Shown: piece after piece, positions 21,327 through 25,659 of the stretch
Layout: the number at the start of each line of letters is the position of its first letter
Position numbering within the stretch: position 1 is the first letter of the stretch
Source of the DNA: an uncultured Spirochaetaceae bacterium
GTDB lineage: Bacteria; Spirochaetota; Spirochaetia; Sphaerochaetales; Sphaerochaetaceae
DNA length: 64,000 bases
Assembly (NCBI GenBank): GCA_944389015.1
Contig: CALXKS010000005.1
Location: 1-64,000 of the forward strand
Direction: 5' to 3'
Program-made: the position numbers and the translations under genes
The notes under the pieces: model-generated
Told to the model about the DNA's origin: nothing
Databases searched by the model: none
The model's input: only the letters and a program-made list of their open reading frames with translations

Positions 21327-21497
21327 CAAAAATCTATCACAGAAAATTGAAGGCCCCACAGCGATGCCATGGAGCCAATGGATATTAATAAGAGATTTGA
21401 GGATTGAGATCTCTTTCTCCCTTGTTCATCTGGAGGGATCATTCCCTCTCCGTTCAGGTTTCATCAAAGGACAAATGCATGAAACCCGTATTCTCTT

Positions 21498-22330: not shown

Positions 22331-25300
22331 TTAAGCCTTTATTGTAAGGTTAAGAGTAACGACTTTTTCAGCCTCCGCTCCTGTCGTATCGGTATAGCCG
22401 AATACGAAATTGATCTTTGATGCATGATTAGGAGTAATAGTACCTGTCATAGGCTCAAGCTCCGTTGTCTCAGGATCATATGCATCAAGGCAGTACCCCT
22501 TAAGCTCAAGAACTGTGTCATCACCATGTTCTTTTATGGATTCTGTATCATAGCCGAACTTGGTAAGATCATATTCCTCGAGAAGATACATTTTGCCTTC
22601 TGCAATCTCCGTTGCTGTCTCATCATCATAGACAAGCTTGATAGAACTCTCTTCTGTATAAGAAGTGCCGGAGAATGTGAACTTTGCCTGCTTTATTACT
22701 TTTTCACCTGTTGCATCAACATATTCGATGTTGGCAGTCACAGTATTCTCGCCTTCGACAACAACCTGACCAGTTGTATAGACAAACGTCACTGTAGGCT
22801 CAGCTGGTGTACCTACTGCATCTTCTTCATCGAAATTGAGAGTGTAAGCAGCAAATCCCTCTGTGAAAATATCAGAAGAAAGAGACTTATCTACAAGTGC
22901 TATGAACTCATCGGAAGGCTCAATAGCAGGTGTTGTCACATTCCAGTAAGAAGTTCCAGCGGCAACACTTATTTCTTCACTTGTTTCTTTTACATATGCA
23001 GCACCAGTATCAGCATCAGTCAGTGTCACAGAGACCTTATAGCCAGTCTGCTCTGCTGCTGTGAACTCTGCAGGAAGCTCTGCTACAGGAGCACCATTCT
23101 GGAATACATCATAGTCCTCGATGTCCTTTGCAACATAGCCTTTATCGTTCTTTGTGTTGACTATCCATGTGATCTCATCACCAATCAAGCCAGTTGTCGC
23201 ACTTGGAGTAACCTCGACTGTTGCTACCTTTTCAGGAGCACCAAGCTCAACAGGGAACTCTGCAGAGAATCCATCATATGTTACCTGGAGATAAAGGTCA
23301 GCAAGAACTTCTGTTCCATCATAAGGGGAATCCTTAGCAGTTGCTTCGACAAACTTATCACCGACCATGAAACCATATGCAAGAGTTACATCAGTGAATG
23401 TCTCAGTGATTTCATCATCCTCACCATAGTCATAGGATACTGTGAGTGACTTAATGACATTAGCCACAGCAGGATCAGCAAGAGCTGTTGACAGCATATC
23501 TGCATCATAGTACTGAGCTGCAGGTCCAACATAGGTATCTGCAAATTCAATTGCAAGACCATCTACCTTTGGCTCTCTTTCGTCAACTGCAAGAGCTGCT
23601 GATGCAGCAGTAACACCTCTGTACTCAACTCCAACATAAAGCTTAGTATCTTCTTCTGAAGGAACAACAGTTACCGGAGTCTCAGGAGCTTTGCCAGTTG
23701 AATCTGTTGTGTAATACAGAGTAAGGTCATCAGCATTCTCGAAGAATGTCTTATCAGAGCCAACAGTAATGGAAATCCTGAAATCATTGAAGTCCGGAGC
23801 TGAGAGATCCTCACCTTTGTAGTAGGTCTTATCCTCAACATTCGGATTATCAGCAACAGCAAGAGTTACTGTCGTGAAGTCGGCATCTGCAAGCGCCCTT
23901 GTAGCAGTCTTTCCTGCATACTCAACAGCAAGGAAAACAGTGTTAGCTACTGGAGCAGTTGTGAAATCATAATCCTGAAGAGCAAAGCCATCAGCATCTA
24001 CAAACGCATATGTGAGGCCTTCTGTATCAGCAGGAATTGTCTCGTCTGATTCATCAGAGTAATTAATTACCACATTGAAATCGATATCATCAACAGTAGG
24101 TGCGACTGTTCCATAATCATACTTAGGAATAGAAGCTCCGCTTACGGATATGGTTATTTTGCTGATCTCTTTACCAACAACAAAACTTACGTCAGAAGTT
24201 TCTGCCTTTACACCAAGGTACTCAGCTGTGACACAGTAAATTGCATCAGCTTTTGCTACAGTACCTGCAGCAATTGCATTGCCAGTTTCATCTGCATAGC
24301 CAAGCTCTACTCCATCTTCTGCTGTAAGATTGCGTGCAATCACTCTGGGTTCTCCGTCAACGTTCGCTGTCAGATTGACAGTAACCCAGCTGTCATCGAT
24401 CTCAGGAAGCGCAGCACCTGCAGCAAGCTTGAGAGCTGTCTTGCCAGCTTCTGTCAGATCTGCAGAAAGAGTAAGATCTCCACCTTTAACAACAGTAACT
24501 GCATTAATTTCAGATCCTTCTGTATCAAAAGATGTCTTGGAATGGCCATTGACTGTGACCTTGATTCCAACTTCTGTAGCAGATGCAAGATCCTCAACAG
24601 CAATCTCCTCGCCATACTTGTTGACATATGAAAGCTCTACGCCCTCGAAGCTTACAAGATCCGTTTTCTTAGCGGCAGAGATAGCTCTGGAAGTTGCAGC
24701 ATCTGTGTATCCTTCATAGTAAACCTGTACATCTACATCATCTTCGCCTGGAACAGGAAGCTCTGCATACTCAAGAGCAGGAAGATATGCACCTTCTTTT
24801 ACAGTTACAGAAGCAATGCCTGTGATCTTGTCTGCTGTGAATGCAGGATTCTGGTCTGGAAGACATGAGAATTCATATACAGCCTGTGCATCTCCGCCGA
24901 CATTTGACTTGATAGTCACAGATGCAGGAACTGCGGATGATGTAGGCTCAAGTCCGCCCTCATATGTGATTCCGTATTCGTTACCAGCATCTGTTGCAAC
25001 AAAGTCATACTCTTCCTGAGAAAGGGTCATTGTCTTTTCTGCACCTGTCTTGTCATAGTATGATGCGACAACTGTGAACTGTGACTTGAGTACATTAAGA
25101 CCGGCAAGATCGGTGTTCTTGATCTCAGCAGGTCCTGTGATTGTCAGAGCCTGGATATCATAGATATCGATGCCTGCCTTTGCAAATACAATCTCACCAA
25201 CCTGGTTCTCTCCGATCCTGGCCCTGACTGTATCTCCAAGATCAACCTTACCAGTAGCACTACTTGATTCATCAACAAGAATAATGGTATTGGCAAGCTC

Positions 25301-25504
25301 ATACTGGCTGCCATTCATGTCGATGCCATATACCTTGAAGTTGGTAGGCAGGAAGTTCTGTCCTGTAAGGAAGTCCACCTCCTGTACGATTTTTCCCGAT
25401 TCAAAGTATGCAGGATACTTTGCCTGATATGAACAGCCCACCATAGTGAGAAGGGCTATTGCCACCACGGCAAACGATACAAAGATTGATTTTCGTTCTC
25501 TCAT
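22331..25504 (-). CDS. giant acidic repeat lipoprotein, probably surface-exposed
   Basis: This 1057-residue lipoprotein has a signal peptide ending LLTMVGC. The remainder is acidic and beta-rich, built from about ten Ig-like units of some 90-100 residues. Each opens with 'V..I.V..G..P....' and contains 'V.V.Y.....'. Such arrays occur in bacterial surface adhesins and scaffold proteins; no enzymatic motif is visible. The ATG at 25504 is preceded by AAGGAGAGG. A TTG 6 nt upstream is in frame but poorly placed. The promoter at 25539-25569 contains a G9 tract. A surface antigen subject to on/off switching is an inference from that layout. Confidence 0.75.
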   Translation of the reverse strand: MRERKSIFVSFAVVAIALLTMVGCSYQAKYPAYFESGKIVQEVDFLTGQNFLPTNFKVYGIDMNGSQYELANTIILVDESSSATGKVDLGDTVRARIGENQVGEIVFAKAGIDIYDIQALTITGPAEIKNTDLAGLNVLKSQFTVVASYYDKTGAEKTMTLSQEEYDFVATDAGNEYGITYEGGLEPTSSAVPASVTIKSNVGGDAQAVYEFSCLPDQNPAFTADKITGIASVTVKEGAYLPALEYAELPVPGEDDVDVQVYYEGYTDAATSRAISAAKKTDLVSFEGVELSYVNKYGEEIAVEDLASATEVGIKVTVNGHSKTSFDTEGSEINAVTVVKGGDLTLSADLTEAGKTALKLAAGAALPEIDDSWVTVNLTANVDGEPRVIARNLTAEDGVELGYADETGNAIAAGTVAKADAIYCVTAEYLGVKAETSDVSFVVGKEISKITISVSGASIPKYDYGTVAPTVDDIDFNVVINYSDESDETIPADTEGLTYAFVDADGFALQDYDFTTAPVANTVFLAVEYAGKTATRALADADFTTVTLAVADNPNVEDKTYYKGEDLSAPDFNDFRISITVGSDKTFFENADDLTLYYTTDSTGKAPETPVTVVPSEEDTKLYVGVEYRGVTAASAALAVDEREPKVDGLAIEFADTYVGPAAQYYDADMLSTALADPAVANVIKSLTVSYDYGEDDEITETFTDVTLAYGFMVGDKFVEATAKDSPYDGTEVLADLYLQVTYDGFSAEFPVELGAPEKVATVEVTPSATTGLIGDEITWIVNTKNDKGYVAKDIEDYDVFQNGAPVAELPAEFTAAEQTGYKVSVTLTDADTGAAYVKETSEEISVAAGTSYWNVTTPAIEPSDEFIALVDKSLSSDIFTEGFAAYTLNFDEEDAVGTPAEPTVTFVYTTGQVVVEGENTVTANIEYVDATGEKVIKQAKFTFSGTSYTEESSIKLVYDDETATEIAEGKMYLLEEYDLTKFGYDTESIKEHGDDTVLELKGYCLDAYDPETTELEPMTGTITPNHASKINFVFGYTDTTGAEAEKVVTLNLTIKA

Positions 25505-25538: not shown

Positions 25539-25569
25539 ACGATACCCCCCCCCGGTACAATTTTGTCAA
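25539..25569 (-). promoter_or_regulatory. promoter with a G9 tract in its spacer
   Basis: On the minus strand TTGACA (25569-25564) is followed by AAATTGTACC, nine G and then TATCGT (25544-25539). The spacer is therefore 19 bp; with seven G it would be the optimal 17. The same -10 sequence TATCGT is used by the nfo promoter at 32568. The start codon lies 35 bp downstream of the -10. Confidence 0.65.
25545..25553. repeat. homopolymer of nine C (nine G on the minus strand)
   Basis: This run is exactly the downstream half of the spacer between -35 and -10 of the giant lipoprotein promoter. Tracts of this length are prone to slipped-strand changes. Confidence 0.95.
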
Positions 25570-25659
25570 GTGTTTTTTAGGGATTGAACGAACTTTTTTG
25601 AAATTATGGCATAAGAATGCCGCTGGCGGATTGCCAGCAGCTGTGTTTGCTTTTGTGTT

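Follow-up and report, generated by a model that had tools for sequence, protein, structure and literature searches.

The closest described systems come from Treponema pallidum and Neisseria meningitidis. In T. pallidum, tp0126, which encodes an OmpW homolog, has a poly-G tract between its -35 and -10 elements with an optimum of 17 nt, while in the tprE/G/J promoters tracts of eight Gs or fewer are permissive (PMC7864442). The porA gene of N. meningitidis carries poly-G in the -35/-10 spacer, and its expression is graded with 9-11 Gs (PMC3639595). Among spirochaetes, poly-G promoter switching has so far meant T. pallidum, an organism that is difficult to culture and to manipulate; here we describe what appears to be the same logic acting genome-wide in diverse uncultured spirochaetes. 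Our search of the open literature found no report of the combination of poly-G tract, lipoprotein and helix-turn-helix (HTH) gene in a spirochaete.

The window (the whole stretch analysed, 64,000 nucleotides) comes from an uncultured spirochaete whose habitat, judging from similar metagenome-assembled genomes (MAGs), is probably the gut. All features discussed in it lie on the minus strand, and a direct read bears out exactly the promoter that had been proposed: a -35 hexamer TTGACA (25569-25564; 6/6 positions, a hexamer that almost every paralog promoter shares) and a -10 hexamer TATCGT (25544-25539), which fits the genus consensus TAnnnT, are separated by a 19-nt spacer with nine Gs at its end. 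The spacer consists of a fixed half of 10 nt, AAATTGTACC (25563-25554), followed by the G9 tract GGGGGGGGG (25553-25545), the proposed slipping element; 10 nt is also the modal length of the fixed half in the genus, where the tract is often bordered by ACC. A Shine-Dalgarno sequence common to the paralogs, AAGGAGAGG (25520-25512), precedes the lipoprotein ORF of 1057 aa (25504..22331, with the ATG at 25504 and the stop codon at 22333-22331). The upstream neighbours are YbbR and DAC/DisA genes (Pfam), ended by a terminator-like hairpin of 9 pairs with a loop of 5 (25619..25641); since this hairpin closes the disA-ybbR genes, the lipoprotein gene is probably its own transcription unit with its own promoter. 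Downstream follow an HTH_23 gene of 70 aa (MEERNSLRQRHWVPLDKRKECLTLF..., 22260-22048), which is conserved behind many poly-G lipoproteins, a small lipoprotein of 147 aa (P0002, 21498..21941) that is likely the last gene of the unit, and a second terminator-like hairpin, GGCTCC...GGGGCC (21352..21376), also seen behind some other HTH copies.

The locus resembles tp0126 in that a spirochaete surface protein is preceded by poly-G between the two promoter boxes, with the tract length setting their spacing; however, tp0126 is a single locus encoding an outer-membrane barrel, whereas the present system involves about ten paralogous lipoproteins in each genome, along with the downstream HTH gene. With tprE/G/J and tprL it shares poly-G in the promoters of a paralogous surface family. 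The analogy to tpr genes and porA made in the original prediction stands in kind; both tp0126 and porA have their tract between -35 and -10, while that of tprL spans part of the -10. No homology to Tpr or OmpW was found: the window lipoprotein is without any Pfam match, and is recognised as a lipoprotein by its lipobox. porA, for its part, is a single porin gene of an unrelated organism, and the accessible part of the source describes no downstream regulator gene for it (PMC3639595). What the locus has in common with porA and tp0126 is a tract between the boxes, a length that differs between near-identical promoters (of paralogs and of species) and a product of surface type, here judged from the lipobox (Cys24, and 54/56 lipoproteins among the promoter-type tracts). 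From sequence comparison, the assignment to the same kind of promoter-spacer contingency system, here in a multigene form with a companion HTH gene, appears well supported.

The 1057-aa protein belongs to a 10-copy paralogous family in the source genome, as found by a protein search of the whole genome. It had been described as an Ig-repeat lipoprotein; the lipoprotein half of this description is secured by the lipobox at Cys24, while the Ig half is weak, as the protein has no Pfam, NCBIfam or PDB-profile match, its self-repeats are weak, and Big_3 was detected in one of 15 family members (4e-6). The repeats are degenerate Ig-like ones at most. A single-sequence AlphaFold model of the protein has a pLDDT of 34 and is unusable. 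Adhesin-type folds (Pectate_lyase_5, GLUG, Big_3, LRR_5) occur among the tract lipoproteins, and we expect the poly-G lipoproteins to be exposed at the surface.

The original prediction left out that this is one locus among about ten, and that a conserved HTH gene lies behind it. All ten paralogs of the source genome (10/10) have a poly-G promoter at equal distance; eight of these tracts are pure G8-G11, one is GGGGGAGGG (C74) and one is G6 (C21). Most genus-mates have similar numbers, about ten poly-G lipoprotein promoters each. A search with the pattern TTGAC-N9-13-G7-TA gave 212 matches in 36 of 48 genus genomes, while the reversed control pattern gave 0; it is therefore the position of the tract, and not its count, that lies beyond chance. 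In an unbiased pattern-search survey of every run of at least eight Gs in seven genus genomes (n=115), TA directly follows the run in 97 cases, and a -35 element matching at least 5/6 of TTGACA lies 5-14 nt before it in 72. Of these 72 runs, 56 are followed at 27-43 nt by a start codon, and the lipobox marks all but two of the ORFs (54/56) as lipoproteins; the element following the run has its T in 64/72, its A in 66/72 and its last T in 65/72, the three key positions of TAnnnT. The number of G runs in the window was dropped as evidence, because shuffled windows hold as many G7 matches (three overlapping matches, against a shuffle mean of 4.29). That G7+ matches are no more frequent than in shuffles is what one would expect if an ordinary gene had come by its G run through chance; such an accident is refuted by the 10/10 paralogs, the 212 matches against 0 in the control and the 54/115 tracts in the same place, and we regard it as next to impossible.

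The same architecture recurs in a sister genus and also in a different family of the same class, often before lipoproteins, and is absent from most of the other spirochaete families sampled. No poly-G promoter was found in the viral contigs searched.

Near-identical promoters differ solely in the number of Gs, from 8 to 12, in comparisons between paralogs or species with one consensus length per MAG contig; over all tracts with near-identical flanks the lengths span 6 to 12. With flanks 100% identical, G9 stands against G10 in both G014 and G018. Among pairs whose flanks match fully or nearly so, G018 also has G9 against G11, C8 and C2 of the source genome have G10 and G11, and C48 and C6 of G013 have G9 and G10; G022 has G8, G11 and G12, all with one geometry. 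Variable tracts are also seen upstream of a conserved PapD_N-like exported gene, in five of seven genomes (8, 9, 10, 10 and 11 Gs; L349, L263, L296, L321, L334); these lie ~65-77 nt before the start, and no clear TTGACA is present at promoter distance.

Several tracts fall within or beside genes of other kinds. In a type ISP restriction-modification (RM) enzyme (G010:C27:17292, L277) the coding sequence changes frame at a G10 and the gene is apparently off, while a relative (G006:C1:38252, L250) has a C9 at the same site with the frame open (on), the tract being on the opposite strand compared to G010. The frames of a ParB_N/N6_N4 DNA methylase (G019:C18:71139, L329) are split at a G9, and the methylation it encodes is likely phase-variable; a further G9 lies inside an HsdS gene, and tracts adjoin genes for family 2 glycosyltransferases. 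RM, methylase, HsdS and glycosyltransferase genes are classes known for slipped-strand switching, and the presence of such contingency-type genes at the remaining tracts supports the slippage reading of the promoter tracts.

We thus suggest, with a probability of roughly 0.85, that the G9 tract serves as a contingency element in a sigma-70-type promoter, one of a genome-wide set, in which slippage alters the spacing and hence the transcription of a surface lipoprotein. Replication slippage would add or remove Gs, the number of Gs would set the -35/-10 spacing, and lipoprotein transcription would go up or down with it; with about ten loci switching independently, each cell would present a different random combination of lipoproteins. 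The predicted phase variation gains strong support from comparison: all ten paralogs carry the promoter, it recurs across the genus, G counts differ between identical flanks, and contingency-type genes occur at other tracts; slippage inside one clone and an effect of the spacing on transcription are what we would expect from these patterns.

Which length would correspond to the ON state is less clear-cut, as the evidence points in two directions. Among the 72 promoter tracts the total spacer is 19 nt in 31, 18 in 12, 20 in 9 and 21 in 6, with 22, 17 and 16 nt in 4 each; the modal G length in the genus is 9 and the modal spacer 19 nt. Ordinary TTGACA...TAnnnT pairs that lack a G run are commonest at a spacing of 17 nt (10, vs 1 to 9 at other spacings), although these are small numbers from ~0.53 Mb of genus sequence. 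Together with the tp0126 optimum of 17, this peak favours G7 as the ON state and G9 as a low one, as had been predicted for this tract, and we lean towards an optimum of 17 nt (G7) from which most loci would be one or two slips away. On the other hand, four tracts, each from a different species (C74 of the source genome, G006, G010 and G039), are broken by an A or T, and all have a spacer of exactly 19 nt, for which the probability would be 0.43^4 = 0.03 were interruption random; these interrupted tracts, taken with the mode at 19, mean that 19 nt (G9) may be the working length. The interrupted tracts (L072 at ~7157 on the minus strand, L490, L498 and L469) contain one A or T each and are probably locked. 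In other clades (genus g5, and G289) the spacers are mostly 15-16 nt, on the opposite side of 17. No compensation between the fixed half and the G count was seen among the 72 promoter tracts (rho -0.16, p 0.19).

At DNA level, unrelated lipoprotein genes share a stretch of ~200 bp that follows their stop codons and is about 70-87% identical; this stretch is the HTH_23 gene, of about 57-80 aa. All three copies tested match HTH_23 in Pfam (24.8-27.5 bits, gathering cut-off 24.6), and a model of the protein has four helices with a pLDDT of 74. The median dN/dS of ~0.18 indicates purifying selection, and the ORF therefore represents a real protein. In the source genome the gene stands behind the poly-G lipoprotein wherever the contig continues, except at C6, and the three further HTH copies at contig ends equal in number the lipoproteins cut at contig ends (three). 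Elsewhere in the genus it follows 4/4 poly-G lipoproteins in G014, 6/10 in G018, 5/8 in G019 and 4/4 in G027; it is scarce in G010 (2/8, thus missing behind 6/8) and in G006 (2/9, missing behind 7/9). Working backwards from the HTH genes in other genomes, we found that 15 of the 16 copies that could be evaluated directly follow a lipoprotein, and that a G tract is present in 12 of the 13 visible promoters, including one G6 and two interrupted tracts. Across 48 genomes the number of HTH copies correlates with the number of poly-G promoters (rho 0.81, p 2e-12); the gene was found in 0/12 genomes without poly-G promoters and in 26/26 with three or more. With four borderline matches in a 392-genome phylum sample outside the genus, it appears essentially confined to the genus. 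A common unit has a poly-G promoter, a variable lipoprotein gene and the gene for the small HTH protein, and a terminator often closes it. A comparable small HTH ORF (MGKQKFSIEF...) follows immediately on a poly-G promoter in a distant family (G127:C10, L360).

The promoters of loci with and without the HTH gene differ in their flanks: the ACC edge is present in 21/30 HTH-positive promoters vs 7/21 HTH-negative ones (p 0.012), and a fixed half of 9-11 nt in 29/30 vs 15/21 (p 0.015). This bias fits the notion of the G run as a fixed element of the promoter, a regulator-binding or structural site, perhaps for the HTH protein, with a length that is either of little importance or kept near 9; the modal length of 9, the modal spacer of 19 and the four interrupted tracts that keep 19 nt would agree with it. 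A fixed element is hard to reconcile with lengths from 6 to 12 despite near-identical flanks, with spacers that are mostly 15-16 in a second genus of the family and in a different family, and with tracts inside RM gene reading frames, while the flank bias could equally reflect common descent of the cassettes. We consider it improbable.

A second explanation is that tract and promoter are mainly a recombination joint, with cassettes being swapped via their promoter/leader and HTH ends and the variation in G length arising as a by-product. Mosaic loci of this type do occur: in G018, the sequences at C6:93687 and C16:692 agree fully just before the tract (homology over at least 399 bp) and are 28% alike behind it, while in the source genome C2:13140 and C6:2855 (G000) are 98% alike downstream and 36% upstream, and the identity of the HTH 3' ends (70-87% in DNA) behind different lipoproteins points the same way. 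Homologous exchange, however, needs no homopolymer, tracts also occur before single genes and in coding frames, and some of the junctions could be assembly joins over the shared 25-nt promoter core; we therefore see this as an unlikely account of the tracts, if a somewhat better one than a fixed element. A contingency promoter remains our preferred reading.

As to the role of the HTH protein, PHROG gave weak HTH matches to terminase small subunit and transposase families, and NCBIfam, PDB-profile, Foldseek and plasmid tblastn searches returned nothing specific. It shares HTH_23 (Pfam) and the weak PHROG transposase/terminase matches with IS3 OrfA-like domains, but unlike these it is free-standing, essentially confined to the genus and tied to poly-G lipoproteins; no transposase catalytic ORF was recognised by eye among the next ORFs. 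It is presumably co-transcribed with the lipoprotein, and it may serve as a feedback regulator of poly-G promoters. We speculate, while holding it to be rather doubtful, that the genus has its own surface-variation cassette in which every randomly switched lipoprotein gene brings along a small HTH regulator, and that HTH protein from an ON locus acts back on the shared poly-G promoters by cross-repression or activation; random slippage would then lead to coordinated or near-exclusive expression of a single lipoprotein or a few. The sober alternative is a domesticated transposase-type domain that merely travels with the cassettes. The locus raises a new, testable question, namely whether a co-encoded DNA-binding protein links otherwise independent random switches. 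The dozens of natural length variants, together with the contrast between HTH-positive and HTH-negative loci, provide material for probing the effect of tract length.

MAG contigs often end ~50-150 nt from poly-G promoters (e.g. L300, L301, L337), probably because promoter and leader are repeated, and surface-gene repertoires are therefore under-assembled; a MAG consensus also hides surface variation at poly-G tracts. Mirror-image poly-C promoters are rare, occurring in 10/48 genus genomes. The source genome has two of them (G000:C21:13587 and G000:C30:43594), with TTGACA or TTGACT, C10 and a -10-like box, followed by lipoproteins. In the same genome a TTGACA-N7-G9-TATGCT promoter (G000:C10:23585, spacer 16) stands before a PGDH_C/NAD-binding dehydrogenase, which is no surface protein. 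Short, bacteriocin-like peptides with a double-glycine leader stand behind poly-G promoters in other spirochaete families (G284:C12, G277:C69), and a single-contig genome from another family (G354:C1) has very long promoter tracts of G11-G16 with TATAAT-like -10 boxes.
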